Made by a program: the position numbers and the translations under genes | Assembly: GCA_905479905.1 (NCBI GenBank) | Contig: CAJQOK010000019.1 | Location: forward strand, 1 to 7,749 | DNA: 7,749 nucleotides | Source: an uncultured Aliterella sp. | GTDB taxonomy: Bacteria > Cyanobacteriota > Cyanobacteriia > Cyanobacteriales > Chroococcidiopsidaceae | Direction: 5' to 3' | Part shown: one piece after another, positions 1,031-6,120 of the stretch | Layout: the number at the start of each line of letters is the position of its first letter | Numbering within the stretch: the first letter of the stretch is position 1 | Notes under the pieces: model-generated | What the model saw: the letters and a program-made list of their open reading frames with translations, nothing else | What the model was told of the DNA's origin: nothing | The model's database searches: none

Positions 1031-1441
1031 TTATTTATGCAGAGCAGGGTTACTTTGAAATTCTGGTCTTCTTCCAGCTTCATCAGCTTTATCTTTGACA
1101 AACCCTGCTGCTTCTTTAAAGGCATCAGTAGCCGCTTCTACACGATTTTCTACTCGTTCGCCTAAATCTGCATTACGTTGATTTAGTCCACCTAATTTAG
1201 GCTCTATAAAGTCTTCGCTAGTTTTTATTGGTAGCTCTGTTTCTCTTTGCGCTCTTCCTGCTGGTGTCTCCGCACCGGGATAGAGAATACCGCCTGCTTT
1301 TACGGGCGCGCTATTTGGGTTTGCACCTTGAACATTTGCGGAATTACAAGCGGTGCTAATTGTTAGCAATACGCCTGCTAACAATACTGTTAGAACTTGA
1401 CGTAACCGTAGTTTTTTAAAAAAAGCAGTTAACTTATTCAC
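1031..1441 (-). CDS. Small lipoprotein, paralogue of the 292-942 product (136 aa)
   Basis: Function unknown. The leader is basic (KKLRLRQ), then hydrophobic (VLTVLLAGVLLTI), then STAC with the lipidated cysteine at residue 32. This is aligned without gaps to the leader of the neighbouring protein, including a shared ACNSA, so the two arose by duplication or share a leader module. The mature part differs: residues 33-75 contain Gly/Pro/Asn stretches (GGILYPGAETPAGR), and residues 85-125 form one charged amphipathic helix (VENRVEAATDAFKEAAGFVKDKADEA). No enzyme motif is visible. The start is GTG at 1441-1439, chosen because a full AAGGAGG lies five bases upstream. The nearby ATG at 1445-1443 is in another frame and runs into a stop after three codons. 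It is the upstream gene of the tandem pair and probably carries the pair's promoter. I recall related cyanobacterial proteins as a DUF6658-type family, without certainty. Confidence 0.8.
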   Translation of the reverse strand: MNKLTAFFKKLRLRQVLTVLLAGVLLTISTACNSANVQGANPNSAPVKAGGILYPGAETPAGRAQRETELPIKTSEDFIEPKLGGLNQRNADLGERVENRVEAATDAFKEAAGFVKDKADEAGRRPEFQSNPALHK

Positions 1442-1446
1442 CCATT

Positions 1447-1453
1447 CCTCCTT
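1447..1453 (-). promoter_or_regulatory. Strong Shine-Dalgarno that fixes a GTG start
   Basis: The minus strand reads AAGGAGG, then AATGG, then GTG. The perfect anti-16S match with five-base spacing selects the GTG at 1441 over the out-of-frame ATG at 1445. Such a full Shine-Dalgarno contrasts with the other genes here, most of which have weak or no visible ones. Confidence 0.75.
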
Positions 1454-1469
1454 GTAGCTTTTATGACGA

Positions 1470-1475
1470 ATTATG
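1470..1475 (-). promoter_or_regulatory. Candidate -10 element for the lipoprotein pair
   Basis: The minus strand shows CATAAT, one mismatch from TATAAT, about 17 bases upstream of the Shine-Dalgarno. The hexamer 17 bp further upstream (GTGTTT) is a poor -35 match. Suggestive only. Confidence 0.3.
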
Positions 1476-1899
1476 CCCGAAATCTATTTTTTAAACACGG
1501 TAAACATTTGTGTAAATGCGATCGCTTCTAAAAATAGCTTCTTTGACGCTATCTACTTAAATTAGCTGATAATTAATCAACAATCGCTAACAGTAGCAAT
1601 TCAGTAGCAAGAGATACCTCTAGCCAAGGTCACATTCTTATTTGCTCAATTAAACGCCTGTTATCTAACTCTAGAGAGATTTACAACCTTTCCATTGATA
1701 GGATTATTTGTGGTGTTTAGTGAGAAAAAATATTTATTATACAAATACAAAGATTTGCTAACTTTTGCTACAACTTCAAGCAAAGTAGACGTAAATTTAA
1801 ACTACAAAGGCTTGTTGCATAGTTTGAGTAGGCGATCGCTATATATTGCCTTAAGTACAACTAATTTTTATTCGTTGAAATTTACTGTTTAAGTTTGTC
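1476..1899. other. Gene-free intergenic region between divergent genes
   Basis: This is the rest of a 458-bp gap between the minus-strand lipoprotein gene and the plus-strand methyltransferase gene. It is A/T-rich with two HIP1 octamers (1518-1525 and 1832-1839). A TTG-initiated 65-codon frame ends at 1892, but its residue composition looks like translated non-coding DNA. Promoters of both flanking genes must lie here. I see no strong sigma70-type pair for the plus strand and no convincing RNA gene. Confidence 0.6.
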
Positions 1900-3963
1900 A
1901 TGTACAGTCTTAACCAACTTGACGTTATTTCTGAACTCTGCCAACAGAGCGAAGTTGGCAAGCGTTTACCGTCGGCTCTTTACGTCCATGTTTCGGCTTT
2001 ACCTAGTCTCGATCCTTTATTGCAAAGCTACGAAGAAAGCGCCAAGTTTGCTAGAGCGCAGCAGAATGTAAATATTGTCAAATTCAGTACAGATAAGTTC
2101 AAAATTTCTTATTTGTTTTATCCTGATTTTGATACAGATCCTCATCCCGCTTTACAATCAAGCATCGTTGTTGATTTACAAACTTTAGCAACTAGCTACC
2201 GAGACTACCGTACTTCCGATAATCCGCCCATACTGCACCGTAAAGAAACTTTTGTCACGCCCGATTATCCGCTTTACTCAGAGTTTGCAGCTTTAACTGG
2301 TCTTGAACAAGCTTTAGGATTGCTCCGTAATACTACAGCAATTGGCACGCGGCTTCTATGGGAGCAACGTTTAGAATTGCAAGGAGTTGAACTGCAAGGA
2401 CATAGCTTAATCGTGCATCCAGAACGCGCTCAAGGCGATTCTCCCCGCATTGAGCGCCATAAAGCAGCGATCGCTCGCACTGAATTATCCCGCCCGGTAC
2501 GCCTTGCTGTAGAGGCAGATTTATTTAGTTCGGAAACTACTTTTTTTGATTATGGTTGCGGCTACGGTGGCGATATTAGTTGCATTCATAACTTAGGTTA
2601 CAGCAGTACAGGATGGGATCCTTATTATTCCCCAGATACTCCCCTTATCGCCGCCGACGTGGTTAATTTGGGGTATGTAATTAATGTTATTGAAGATACT
2701 GGAGAACGTCGGGAAGCTTTGATTAAAGCTTGGGAACTTACGCGCCAAGTATTGATTGTGTCCGCGCAAGTATTGATAAGCGATCGCACTAGAGGACAAA
2801 TAGCTTACGGTGATGGTGTAGTTACGCGGCGCAATACTTTTCAAAAATACTACGAACAAGAAGAACTAAAAACTTACATCGAACAGGTATTAGAAATAGA
2901 GGCAATTCCGGTAGCTTTGGGGATTTATTTTGTCTTTCGAGATGCAAGTCTTGGGCAAAGTTTTCGCGCTTCTCGCTATCGTTCTCGCGCTACTACACCT
3001 AAAATTCGCGTCCCTAGTAAGCGGTTTGAAGATTATCGAGAGTTACTTACTCCCTTAATGAAGTTTATCAGCGATCGCGGACGATTGCCTGTAAAAGGCG
3101 AAATTGGGCAACAGTTAGAACTACTAGCAGAATTTGCTAGTTTTAAACGCGCCTTTCAAGTAATTCTTCAAGTTACAGACTCTCAAGAATGGGAAGAAAT
3201 AGCGCAAAAACGCCGAGAAGATTTGTTAGTATATTTTGCTTTAAGCAAGTTTAGCCACCGCCCAAAATTAGCAGAGTTAAAACCCCAAATTCAAGAAGAC
3301 ATTAAAGCTTTGTTTGGTAGTTATAAGCAATTACTCCTCAGCGCCGATGAGATGCTGTTTGGCGTTGGCAATTTGGCTATTATTGACCAATGTTGCCAAA
3401 AGTCCGAAGTTGGTCAAAAACTGCCCAATTCGTTAATAGTTCATGTTTCTAGCCTAGAATCTCTTAATCCCTTACTACGACTCTACGAAGGTTGCGCTAG
3501 TCGCACTATTGGACGAATGGACTCGGCTAATGTTGTTAAATTTCATACTAAAGCACCAAAAATTTCCTACTATTTTTACCCAAATTTCGATCTCGAACCT
3601 CATCCTACTTTAGCCGCTAGTATGCAGATAGATTTACGGGATTTGCAAGTATTTTATACAAATTACGATGACGACTCTAATCCCCCGGTATTGCACCAAA
3701 AAGACACCTTGGTTACTTGTGACTATCCACAATACGCCAAATTTGCTAAACTAAGCGATCAAGAACAAGATTGGGGTTTGTTAGATAATTGGCAAGAAAT
3801 TAAGCGCTTGCAAGGTTGGCAAAAATGTTTGATAGAACACTGTGCTACTATCGAAAATTATCAATTGCGGTGGCGCAAAGATGCCGATCCTTATAAGTTA
3901 AAATTACTACGTTCGGCGTTAAACAAAAAAAGAGCTAATAGCAAAAACTTTTTTAATACTTAG
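1900..3963 (+). CDS. Putative methyltransferase associated with DNA phosphorothioation (Dnd), with duplicated flanking domain (687 aa)
   Basis: I recognise the family TIGR04096, putative methyltransferases encoded beside dnd (DNA phosphorothioation) genes; the methylated substrate is not known to me. The core is residues 171-370: an RIERHKAAIARTELSRPVRL lead-in; SAM motif I FDYGCGYGG (216-224); GWDPYY (238-243) at the second strand, whose Asp is expected to hold the SAM ribose; then ADVVNLGYVINVIED (252-266), VLIVSAQVL (284-292) and the family signature YGDGVVTRRNTFQKYYEQEEL (303-323). Residues 375-488 are a helical extension. Residues 9-160 and 494-645 are clearly two copies of one domain (SEVG, VHVS, PLL, VKF, KISY, PHP, NPP-LH-K and DYP shared), so the core is sandwiched between them. 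The ATG is the first start after an in-frame TGA at 1876; no Shine-Dalgarno is visible. The end overlaps the convergent M15-like gene by 11 bp. No dndBCDE genes are in the window. Three HIP1 sites suggest long residence in a cyanobacterial genome. Confidence 0.85.
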   Translation: MYSLNQLDVISELCQQSEVGKRLPSALYVHVSALPSLDPLLQSYEESAKFARAQQNVNIVKFSTDKFKISYLFYPDFDTDPHPALQSSIVVDLQTLATSYRDYRTSDNPPILHRKETFVTPDYPLYSEFAALTGLEQALGLLRNTTAIGTRLLWEQRLELQGVELQGHSLIVHPERAQGDSPRIERHKAAIARTELSRPVRLAVEADLFSSETTFFDYGCGYGGDISCIHNLGYSSTGWDPYYSPDTPLIAADVVNLGYVINVIEDTGERREALIKAWELTRQVLIVSAQVLISDRTRGQIAYGDGVVTRRNTFQKYYEQEELKTYIEQVLEIEAIPVALGIYFVFRDASLGQSFRASRYRSRATTPKIRVPSKRFEDYRELLTPLMKFISDRGRLPVKGEIGQQLELLAEFASFKRAFQVILQVTDSQEWEEIAQKRREDLLVYFALSKFSHRPKLAELKPQIQEDIKALFGSYKQLLLSADEMLFGVGNLAIIDQCCQKSEVGQKLPNSLIVHVSSLESLNPLLRLYEGCASRTIGRMDSANVVKFHTKAPKISYYFYPNFDLEPHPTLAASMQIDLRDLQVFYTNYDDDSNPPVLHQKDTLVTCDYPQYAKFAKLSDQEQDWGLLDNWQEIKRLQGWQKCLIEHCATIENYQLRWRKDADPYKLKLLRSALNKKRANSKNFFNT
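1924..2379 (+). repeat. N-terminal copy of the duplicated domain in the Dnd-associated methyltransferase
   Basis: Encodes residues 9-160. It aligns almost without gaps (offset 485-486 residues) to residues 494-645. Shared blocks include CQxSEVG, LxVHVSxLxSLxPLL, VKF, KISYxFYPxFD, PHPxL, NPPxLHxK and VTxDYP. The two copies have diverged well beyond a recent tandem duplication. The fold is unknown to me. Confidence 0.85.
3379..3834 (+). repeat. C-terminal copy of the duplicated domain in the Dnd-associated methyltransferase
   Basis: Encodes residues 494-645, the partner of residues 9-160. Differences that may matter: it has YEGCASRTIGR where the first copy has YEESAKFARAQ, and VTCDYP where the first has VTPDYP. 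From my memory of the family, the YEGCAR-type version looks closer to the usual form, so the N-terminal copy may be the extra, diverged one; this is inference. Confidence 0.85.
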
Positions 3964-4513
3964 CTAATTCAATCCAACTTTCTATCCCTTTTCTAGTTGG
4001 TGTCCCTTTAGCGGTAAATGTCCAGATATCTCGCTTATGCTGAAGTCCGTAACTAATATGAATTGGTCTATCTGCGCCGTAGAAATAGATAGAATCAAAG
4101 GGTAAGTGCGATCGCAATATCCATTCAACAATGCGATCGCTCTTTTCATCTATAATCAAAAAATCACAAGCAGCGCCTAGTCTTTCACAGTAATATTTCC
4201 CGTTTTTTTTGACTTCGTAAGCCATATGCTGATCTCTTGCGGGATCTATTCGACCGTTTTTAATTCCTGTCAAAGGATCTTTTTTGTCTAAATATTTCCG
4301 TAAGTCTGAAGAACAAAAGCCATAAGTTAGCTGAAACTTATCTTTTCCAAAGCAGTCAATTATCGGCTCTAAAATAAATTGACTCAAAGCTTGTAGGGCT
4401 GAAATAGTCAATTTTAAGTTGGTCGGGTAGCAATTAATTTCTTTAGTGTATTTCTGATAAGTATTAGTACAAGTGCAAAAATCTTTAATGGTAAAGTATT
4501 TACCGACTTGCAT
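3953..4513 (-). CDS. M15-like zinc D,D-peptidase-fold protein next to the Dnd-type methyltransferase (186 aa)
   Basis: The pattern fits the M15A peptidase (hedgehog/D,D-carboxypeptidase) fold. QHMAYE gives His96 as first zinc ligand; GAACDFLI gives Asp117 as second; LPFDSIYFYG then RPIHISYG gives His152 as third. The spacing LPFD...IHISY closely resembles phage and cell-wall M15A enzymes (LPFDQLI...WVHVSY). Unusually, the usual SxHxxGxAxD is stretched: His96 and Asp117 are 21 residues apart instead of about 7, with KKNGKYYCERL inserted. Conserved-looking Cys13, Cys15, Cys67 and Cys109 stand out. There is no signal peptide or membrane segment, so the protein is predicted cytosolic, which is odd for a peptidoglycan hydrolase. 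ATG at 4513 with no clear Shine-Dalgarno; it follows the 403-residue gene by 19 bp and is probably co-transcribed. It converges with and overlaps the methyltransferase gene. Substrate unknown. Confidence 0.7.
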   Translation of the reverse strand: MQVGKYFTIKDFCTCTNTYQKYTKEINCYPTNLKLTISALQALSQFILEPIIDCFGKDKFQLTYGFCSSDLRKYLDKKDPLTGIKNGRIDPARDQHMAYEVKKNGKYYCERLGAACDFLIIDEKSDRIVEWILRSHLPFDSIYFYGADRPIHISYGLQHKRDIWTFTAKGTPTRKGIESWIELAKY

Positions 4514-4532
4514 ACAATTAAAAAATTAATAA

Positions 4533-5744
4533 TTACAATAAAGTTGTACTATCTCCATAAATAGCCAGTATAATGTTGTACATTTCTAAAAAGTTAATCA
4601 TCGAATCGCATTCCTCTTCTTTAAAGTCTTCGTAGTAACGAATTAAATCGACAATGCAAGTTTCTAAATGAGAGTAAGCCGGTTTGCAAATAAGCACAAT
4701 TTTAAGTAATACCGTTACTAATGTCAAAGTATTACTTTGAGAAATTAGTAACAAAAATAATGGTGATGGCTGACGATGATTTTCTGTAGTTAAATTCTCT
4801 ATTAATCGATTACAGGTAATAATTAGTAAAGAATCAGTTAAAGTTTCCTCATTATGCTTTTCATAGAGTGGCAATATTTTTAAATTTAATGTATCTAATA
4901 GTTCTTCGTGATCGATGAAGATACTTAAGTATTTGTGCAGATTTTGCTTGTAACTCCTATATTTTTGCCCTTTAGCCTGCTCTGTAAAAATTTTTGCAAA
5001 TTTCTTATAAGTAGTTGGTTCACGTTTGGCTACGATGGTTTTAATTAACCTTAAAACCTCATCACTTACACTCGTTGGGTTCCTTGATAAATTGCTTTGG
5101 GTATCAGTTTCTGAACGAGCAAGGTACATTGTCAAATCAAATTTGAAGCGATACCTTAAATGTTTTGCTCTTTCCTTAGCAGCTTCTCGGTGTTCTAAAG
5201 AATTTTTAGGATTGACAGATTGAGCTACAAATATATGAGAACTATAACGTTCGCTCCAGTGGTGTGTTTTTTGCGTTTGTTGAGTTTGTTGGCTAACAAC
5301 TTTATCTGCAAATAGTTTAATCTCTTGGTAGTCTTGACTATTTACAAACTTTTTTAACCAAATTCTTAAACAATTACTAATTGGTGAAAGCGAAGTTTTT
5401 TCAAGACTTGGGTTTTTGAATAACTCAACTAAATTATGTATATGTTTTATTTGTTTAGTAGTTTTCCAGTTATTTATTAATATGTAACAGCAGCGTTTAA
5501 GCGTTGTATAAAATACTTCTTCTTCCCCAGCGACCACAATTTCATATAAACCTTCAACAGCCCCCGAACTGGTAGAACCTAAATGCTGAATAAATAAACT
5601 ATTAAATTCTTGCAAAACGGCTTCGGGCGACCAACTTTTAATAATACCCATTAAAAAAGAATATATTTTATCTTGAGCTTGCTCAATATCTTCCGTTGGT
5701 CTAATTATTTTGACACTTGCTTGATAATTTTGATTATCTGTCAT
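4533..5744 (-). CDS. Helical cytosolic protein of unknown function (403 aa)
   Basis: I cannot assign a function. The ATG at 5744-5742 lacks an evident Shine-Dalgarno. There is no signal peptide and no sustained membrane segment, although residues 328-355 (LFLLLISQ...LVTVLLKIVLI) are strongly hydrophobic and could be a buried helix. Most of the chain looks alpha-helical. Residues 80-150 (TLKRCCYILINNW, then an Asn/Leu-rich helix, IWLKKFVNSQDYQEIKLFA) and residues 162-210 (HHWSERYSSHIFVAQSVNP, then a charged helix, FKFDLTMYLAR) are the most motif-like parts, joined by a Gln/Thr-rich linker (151-160). I have a vague memory of similar conserved hypothetical proteins in cyanobacteria, which I cannot name. 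It lies 19 bp upstream of the M15-like gene on the same strand. Its base composition is visibly more A/T-rich than the methyltransferase gene and it contains no HIP1 octamer. Confidence 0.75.
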   Translation of the reverse strand: MTDNQNYQASVKIIRPTEDIEQAQDKIYSFLMGIIKSWSPEAVLQEFNSLFIQHLGSTSSGAVEGLYEIVVAGEEEVFYTTLKRCCYILINNWKTTKQIKHIHNLVELFKNPSLEKTSLSPISNCLRIWLKKFVNSQDYQEIKLFADKVVSQQTQQTQKTHHWSERYSSHIFVAQSVNPKNSLEHREAAKERAKHLRYRFKFDLTMYLARSETDTQSNLSRNPTSVSDEVLRLIKTIVAKREPTTYKKFAKIFTEQAKGQKYRSYKQNLHKYLSIFIDHEELLDTLNLKILPLYEKHNEETLTDSLLIITCNRLIENLTTENHRQPSPLFLLLISQSNTLTLVTVLLKIVLICKPAYSHLETCIVDLIRYYEDFKEEECDSMINFLEMYNIILAIYGDSTTLL

Positions 5745-6120
5745 AACAGCACTTAATAAGTATAAAGTAGTCTAAGAAATTATTTTAATATTTAGCCCAC
5801 TTGGGTAATTATGATAATTTGTATTTATAAAATAGTTTTTGGTCATTGACTTAATGCGATTTATTATTGATAAAGCTATTTCTATCTCCTGTTATATACC
5901 ACCGATATTCTACTGATAACTTTATTATTTATTATGTTAGCGAAACTCAATTTTAGTAAATATACGGGCTTTTGCCTCAACATAGTTTTAATTTAACCCA
6001 AAAAAATAATTTGATTGCTTACTGCAAATTAATTCCTACAAGCAAACGCTTTTATACCAAGACGTGGCTTAGTATTAAGTTATCATTTTTAATTTTGAGC
6101 TTATTGTAGCATTGACATCC

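Follow-up and report, generated by a model that had tools for sequence, protein, structure and literature searches.

The closest described relatives of the gene studied here are the one-copy members of family TIGR04096 (dnd_rel_methyl) of dnd loci, such as those of cyanobacteria G006 and G007, which consist of a methyltransferase core, a linker and one C-terminal domain and are found in the context of DNA phosphorothioation genes. A one-copy member in the dnd locus of Rhodococcus RL1 is recorded in a gene table (PMC8416521), and in the open-licence literature searched it is only in this table that the full name of the family appears. No report of methyltransferase activity of TIGR04096 was found in the open-licence literature. 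The present work concerns a variant of this family encoded in a 7,749-nucleotide stretch of DNA from an uncultured Aliterella sp. (contig CAJQOK010000019.1; the whole stretch is hereafter called the window). The window protein has the same core, linker, C-terminal domain and phosphorothioation context as the one-copy form, and it has two copies of the C-terminal domain instead of one. By every feature tested it is a member of TIGR04096, namely a two-copy variant of the known family in which a doubled domain surrounds a single methyltransferase core. Judging by the sequences of its relatives, this form most likely arose by tandem duplication of a whole one-copy gene followed by loss of the first methyltransferase core. 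Below, M denotes the methyltransferase core with the linker, C the repeated domain, and C1 and C2 its N- and C-terminal copies. The gene and its parts are as follows.

1900..3963, forward strand: TIGR04096 two-copy (CMC) methyltransferase gene, 687 amino acids, 879.9 bits against a cut-off of 150
1912..2415, forward strand: N-terminal copy of the C-terminal domain (C1, residues 5-172), from self-alignment, profile match and predicted structure
2449..2949, forward strand: class I methyltransferase core dependent on S-adenosylmethionine (SAM), residues 184-350, from profile match and structure comparison
2548..2574, forward strand: SAM motif DYGCGYGGD (residues 217-225), from the sequence and the alignment of relatives
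2950..3354, forward strand: mostly helical linker between the core and the C-terminal copy (residues 351-485), from predicted structure
3355..3873, forward strand: C-terminal copy (C2, residues 486-658), the copy also present in one-copy members, from self-alignment, profile match and predicted structure

Duplicated domain of the window protein

Residues 184-658 of the window protein correspond to positions 2-477 of the 478 positions of the TIGR04096 model, that is to its full length, and the N-terminal 172 residues match the C-terminal part of the model only. Aligned with each other, residues 1-170 and 486-656 show 43% identity over 171 columns with one gap (147 bits, E 7e-50). Both segments are matched by the same part of the profile, positions 306-477 in the case of the N-terminal segment (173 bits) and 301-477 in the case of the C-terminal one (222 bits; cut-off 150). 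This confirms what had been proposed in a sequence-only reading of the window that preceded the present analysis, namely that two copies of one domain stand on either side of the core. The constant offset of 485-486 residues seen there was reproduced by the self-alignment, and the SAM-binding DYGCGYGG is located exactly at residues 217-224. A significant match between the segments had been chosen beforehand as the test of the duplication; the alignment of the single sequences was already significant and made the profile-profile step unnecessary. The structure predicted by AlphaFold2 from 70 rows (mean predicted local distance difference test score, pLDDT, 88.5; predicted template modelling score, pTM, 0.68) shows a nearly identical order of helices and strands in the two segments, rather than two different folds. 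Searches against Pfam, PADLOC and PHROGs gave no useful identity for the duplicated domain.

Origin of the two-copy form

The usual form of the family is MC, which is the form described by the TIGR04096 model itself. The cyanobacterial MC proteins are open frames of 483-542 amino acids, and the relatives listed for a Nonomuraea member, 120 in number, are MC without exception. The relatives of the window protein were taken as the best 120 (the window protein included, as P0001) of 7625 passing among 7999 scored, so that their counts are not natural frequencies; they comprise 93 CMC, 25 MCMC, one MCCMC and one MMCMC protein, or, with a looser threshold, 92 CMC, 24 MCMC, one MCCMC, two MMCMC and one CCMC. 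The MCMC members (P0012, P0013, P0018 and others) have the same two C copies as the window protein together with a second methyltransferase with an intact SAM motif. The SAM glycines and the acidic aspartate are invariant in the second M of the MCMC relatives, where the second glycine and the acidic residue are kept in 23 of 23 rows. In the first M each of these two residues is lost in 22 of 23 rows, P0012 being the protein that retains both. The single core of the window protein carries both DYGCGYGGD and GWDPYY intact. A remnant of the M tail of only 31-43 residues precedes the N copy in six of the 120 proteins, four of which were counted as MCMC.

In a tree that includes the long-branched proteobacterial rows, 52 N copies lie on one side of one branch (99/96, 100% of bootstraps). 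When the tree is rooted on actinobacterial one-copy rows, 28 N copies form one clade (99/97, 100%) in which an MCMC row branches first. The comparison of one-copy and two-copy architectures on a tree, as suggested by the sequence-only reading, yields in this way a series of MC, MCMC and CMC forms with all sampled N copies in one clade. That a second domain was inserted independently at the N-terminal end was rejected, as the MCMC relatives, the M-tail fossils and the single clade of the sampled N copies speak against it.

Complementary erosion of the two copies

Two groups of conserved residues, called here patch A and patch B, behave differently in C1 and C2. In the window they are located as follows.

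2221..2244 (core), forward strand: patch B in C1, with the core N108 P P I L H113 R114 K115 and also Y28, G149, T150 and K21 (the counterpart of K21 is often retained by C2 in relatives), from alignments of relatives
3478..3516, forward strand: patch A as it stands in C2, R527 L Y E G C532 A S R T I G538 R539; most of it is lost from C1

With residues numbered by C2, patch A comprises R527, C532, G538 and R539, and patch B comprises Y513, N594, R600, G635 and T636. They were compared in 193 C1 and 193 C2 rows from the same proteins and in 135 one-copy rows (120 actinobacterial-type and 15 cyanobacterial). Patch A is conserved at 93-100% in the one-copy rows and at 93-100% in C2; in C1 it is mostly lost, the commonest residues at its positions being Q (69%), R (30%), P (41%) and Q (43%). 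Patch B is conserved at 93-100% in the one-copy rows and at 97-100% in C1, and it is eroded in C2, where W (43%), D (52%), Q (56%), S (45%) and H (40%) are the commonest. The adjacent residues K506, H599 and K601 remain frequent in C2 (62, 93 and 80%).

The same partition is seen in 59 C1-C2 pairs thinned at 75% identity. The mean entropy at positions 527-541 is 2.31 bits in C1 and 0.57 bits in C2, and at positions 594-606 it is 0.25 bits in C1 and 1.07 bits in C2. There are 51 columns with the same residue in at least 90% of both one-copy sets; both copies keep this residue in 26 of them, C1 alone in seven and C2 alone in six. Another 12 columns are intermediate, and in no column have both copies lost it. 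It had been suggested that one copy diverged for regulation. This is not supported, since divergence has affected both copies in a complementary way, with residues lost from one being retained in the other, and it is C1 that is better conserved near patch B.

A further 120 relatives listed for a Massilia protein (itself included; the named ones are proteobacteria) had no part in the definition of the patches and repeat most of the pattern. Their C1 has Y513 in 99% and N594, H599, R600, K601 and G635 in 100%, and their C2 has R527 in 99% and C532 and G538 in 100%. Y513, N594, R600 and G635 are gone from C2, as are C532 and most of G538 from C1.

The MCMC proteins give an indication of the order of the losses. 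Their C1 largely retains patch A (R527 in 21 of 21 proteins, G538 in 95%, R539 in 52%), and at the same three positions the C1 of 92 CMC proteins has mostly Q (88%), P (54%) and Q (56%). Patch B is partly eroded already in the C2 of MCMC, with Y513 kept in 33% and G635 replaced, most commonly by K (42%). On a Sphingomonas plasmid (L147:9522-9986) the N copy is a separate gene of 154 amino acids situated upstream of an MC gene with a four-base overlap. It reads NPLILHRKE at patch B; its MC partner has GCASYLAG at patch A and a degraded patch B without GT..GW.

Methyltransferase core and its possible substrate

By structure comparison, the core has the fold of a Trm9/UbiE/TehB-like class I methyltransferase and is of the Trm9/METTL6/TehB kind. 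Foldseek and VIA-align searches with full-length models gave matches confined to this core, and the named rows of a viral structure library are mostly methyltransferases too. Identity to Trm9, METTL6, TehB and heterocyclic toxin methyltransferases is 10-18%, and the match covers the core only, without the flanking domains. When the whole profile was searched against the sequences of solved structures, three weak matches were obtained (E 0.052 to 0.1), one of them mitochondrial Rsm22; none of these weak matches (E up to 0.1) is named as a sulfur-binding domain (SBD).

DNA adenine-N6 and cytosine-N4 methyltransferases carry a [DNS]PP[YFW] motif after strand 4. This motif is not at the expected place in TIGR04096, where all M0 and M2 rows shown have NLGYVINVIE or a close variant. 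Because the core is devoid of the motif of DNA amino-methyltransferases, methylation of amino groups of bases by it appears unlikely. The motif is also given in PMC10853773.

Another conceivable substrate, in the place of DNA, is a sulfur-carrying small molecule or a protein intermediate from the phosphorothioation pathway, for example a leaking thiol or persulfide that would undergo S-methylation, in which case the duplicated domain would bind a Dnd or Ssp protein. We regard this as doubtful; the similarity of the fold shows no function.

Proposed organization of the active centre

From the sequence comparisons we infer that the active centre is completed by the domain of the partner in a dimer or pseudodimer. 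The one-copy MC members would be homodimers with two centres. Patch A, retained in C2, would act together with the M of the same half, given that A is lost from the N copy once that copy's own M disappears. Patch B, retained in C1, would serve the methyltransferase of the partner half, because patch B of C2 is partly eroded already in MCMC, in which the first M is without a SAM motif. The CMC chain would then retain exactly one complete centre, formed by M2, A of C2 and B of C1. That C1 may act in trans is also suggested by the Sphingomonas plasmid, since the N copy is encoded there as a separate gene. The predicted substrate is DNA at or near a phosphorothioate. We consider it somewhat better than an even chance that the two-copy protein, having arisen by tandem duplication with loss of the first M, works as a single-chain dimer in which C1 completes the active centre of M in trans. 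The earlier idea of an intramolecular dimer is now favoured by the MCMC tandem duplicates together with the complementary loss of conserved residues.

METTL3-METTL14 is a heterodimeric methyltransferase in which one dead partner completes the active one. The likeness is one of working only, a catalytically dead copy being kept in both cases; a relation in sequence was neither sought nor seen. In the window protein it is only the side domain of the dead half that is left, its catalytic domain having most likely been lost. On this reading the protein would work by analogy as a methyltransferase heterodimer whose dead partner had its catalytic domain cut away.

Several observations weigh against this reading of the two-copy protein. 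The pTM of 0.68 leaves the placement of the domains open, and contact of patches A and B with each other or with the SAM site is something we infer. The partition of A and B arose once, as it belongs to one clade, so that counts of sequences are not counts of independent events. By itself, the absence of columns lost in both copies, with about 1.1 expected, does not reach significance, and the whole halves of the domain contrast weakly (p 0.03). C2 and the one-copy rows do not separate cleanly in either tree. The CMC rows L034, L047 and L077 intermix with MCMC rows in the rooted tree; therefore loss of the first M may have occurred repeatedly. Some residues do not follow the partition. K506 is still K in 80% of the C2 rows of CMC, H599 and K601 remain common in C2, and R600 is still R in 85% of the C2 rows of MCMC. 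Among the Massilia-like proteins, 88% of the C2 rows carry D in the place of R539, 95% of the C1 rows carry F in the place of T636, and R527 persists in 57% of the C1 rows. The MC protein of the Sphingomonas plasmid still has LIRK where patch B has LHRK.

The complementary specialization of the copies would fit equally well with C1 and C2 being two arms that read the substrate, for instance one per DNA strand at a modified site, each specialized for a different face of the target, with an active centre that needs neither of them. This amounts to the clamp of the sequence-only reading, with specialization in the place of regulation. Dnd systems are known to modify both strands at short sites, and the residues of patch B are basic and aromatic (Y, H, R, K). 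Two arms alone nevertheless leave unexplained why C1 retains patch A just in those proteins that still have its own first M and why both patches occur in the one domain of one-copy relatives, and we consider this alternative unlikely. That C1 is merely a structural relic of the decayed tandem duplicate, stabilizing the fold or an interface with no catalytic or recognition role, agrees with the clear stepwise decay of the first M but is very improbable, as C1 keeps N594, H599, R600, K601 and G635 at 99-100% in the 193 near relatives and at 100% in the 120 distant ones and survives as a separate gene in L147.

Association with phosphorothioation genes

The sequence-only reading stated that the family accompanies phosphorothioation genes, and this holds in a phylum sample of 146 genomes (G000 included). 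TIGR04096 is above cut-off in 53 genomes and DndC in 45, and all 45 are within the 53 (Fisher p 8.5e-30, uncorrected for shared ancestry, with 49 of the 53 in one order). That TIGR04096 is present in every DndC-positive genome of this sample points to a regular rather than an accessory component of the phosphorothioation system of cyanobacteria. DUF4007, which we take to be SspB, was found in 24 of the 146 genomes, 20 of them within the 53; it is present in five of the eight TIGR04096 genomes without DndC. In the 40 nearest relatives TIGR04096 is above cut-off in 36, DndC is present in 30 and DndD in 32. One of these relatives (G034) has DndC and DndD and lacks TIGR04096, which counts against the Dnd link. 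The possibility that TIGR04096 is a general cyanobacterial gene for which "Dnd-associated" is a mere label was rejected in view of the 30 and 32 relatives with DndC and DndD and of the nesting of DndC in the TIGR04096 set. In the genome of the window itself, which is 65% complete, DndC is on another contig.

The one-copy and two-copy forms differ in their distance to these genes. Of 18 cyanobacterial one-copy genes, 15 lie no more than 10 kilobases (kb) from dndC or dndD, versus 1 of 46 two-copy genes (p 8e-11). Of two cyanobacterial MCMC genes one is near dndC or dndD, and nine further genes are in genomes without DndC and DndD. This count leaves out G009, G010, G016, G051 and G104, whose genes are broken or unclear; draft contigs can hide links, and in single-contig genomes the distances are hundreds of kilobases. 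As exceptions among 80 other loci, a two-copy gene (L067) and two MCMC genes (L037 and L039) are flanked by dndC and dndD. A further exception is a Pseudoalteromonas CMC gene that adjoins dndBCDE. Some two-copy genes stand beside DUF4007 genes (9 of 80 loci); others, and the split form too, have genes for PAPS-reductase and FtsK as neighbours on plasmids of alpha-proteobacteria.

A DndC-like gene (25-31% identity) is close to the two-copy methyltransferase in L024, L028 and L075. Likewise, G047 (C1:68817-69791) and G086 (C23:582341-583261), both among the eight TIGR04096 genomes without DndC above cut-off, have a DndC-like gene under the DndC cut-off close to a two-copy methyltransferase. Perhaps these genes represent a different variant of sulfur transfer.

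Frames of mostly 285-315 amino acids that match only TIGR04096 positions 5 to about 82-90, with roughly 60-70 bits, were observed in many genomes (e.g. G014:C2:355130-355357). It is possible that they form a paralogous family.

Convergent M15-like gene

Next to the methyltransferase gene there is a candidate for a partner of it.

3953..4513, reverse strand: partner candidate, 186 amino acids, M15-like, convergent and overlapping the end of the methyltransferase gene by 11 nucleotides, from alignments, fusions and neighbourhood counts

An H...D...H zinc triad is typical of M15 and hedgehog-type zinc peptidases, with a textbook spacing of H-x6-D. H96, D117 and H152 are invariant in 18 aligned rows of the window's protein, the distance between H and D exceeding that spacing. 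The match to PHROG 894 "endolysin" is weak (E 2.6e-4), and no match in Pfam or NCBIfam and no meaningful match among PDB sequences was found. The resemblance of its sequence to M15 proteins is thus a weak one.

The link to the methyltransferase is provided by fusions and by co-occurrence. In the beta-proteobacteria Massilia (L111), Methylibium (L112) and Piscinibacter (L161) the methyltransferase shares the C-M-C order of the window protein and, for the most part, its partition of A and B, and the homologue of the M15-like protein is fused to its C-terminus, in contrast to the separate convergent gene of the window. The fusion is present in 120 of the 120 listed Massilia-like proteins (the Massilia protein included), a listing biased towards proteins of this length. 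All 27 genomes of the phylum sample with the M15-like gene have TIGR04096; with G051 and G104 excluded, the gene occurs in 26 of 41 CMC genomes versus 1 of 10 MC genomes (p 0.004, uncorrected). Fourteen of these 27 genes are within 10 kb of the methyltransferase gene, six are farther away on the same contig and seven are on another contig. Where unfused hits lie in loci with a recognised methyltransferase gene, 48 of 49 are convergent and downstream, often by less than 150 bases, the loci being overlapping and the independent genes fewer. Calothrix and Nostoc plasmids have the M15-like gene without a TIGR04096 gene in the flanks examined. Taken as a whole, the M15-like gene is a candidate for a new phosphorothioation-associated component; its product is predicted to act in the same step as the methyltransferase or in the processing of that step.

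In an Aeromonas plasmid record (L160:7989-9538) the M15-like gene is followed by an overlapping open reading frame that starts with half a C1 domain, and transposase-like frames are upstream. This arrangement looks rearranged.

Other features of the window

The gene at 4533-5744 on the reverse strand encodes a protein of 403 amino acids without a significant match in Pfam, NCBIfam or PADLOC; it is present in two of 80 related loci (L002 and L003). The methyltransferase of L002 is 95% identical to that of the window and has the same neighbours, and the sequence is filed in a metagenome-assembled genome named Tatlockia (Legionellaceae). Most likely L002 is a mis-binned cyanobacterial contig. Two adjoining genes of the same strand at 292-942 and 1031-1441 (reverse) match DUF6658 with 30 and 168 bits. 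Promoter-like and terminator-like sites in 1400-5900 show no excess over shuffled sequence.

Implications for the family

A more far-reaching picture would be that TIGR04096 is an obligate dimer with a centre completed in trans that S-methylates the phosphorothioate backbone, giving a charge-neutral linkage and a second layer on the sulfur mark; the M15-like zinc protein would be its dedicated processor or eraser, and the two-copy chain a dimer cut down to one centre. As a whole we hold this picture to be quite improbable.

Annotation places TIGR04096 methyltransferases next to DNA phosphorothioation genes and assigns them no function. From the evolutionary series follow single-residue predictions for each copy, which bear on the dimer state, on the place of the active centre and, in combination with mass spectrometry, on the substrate.
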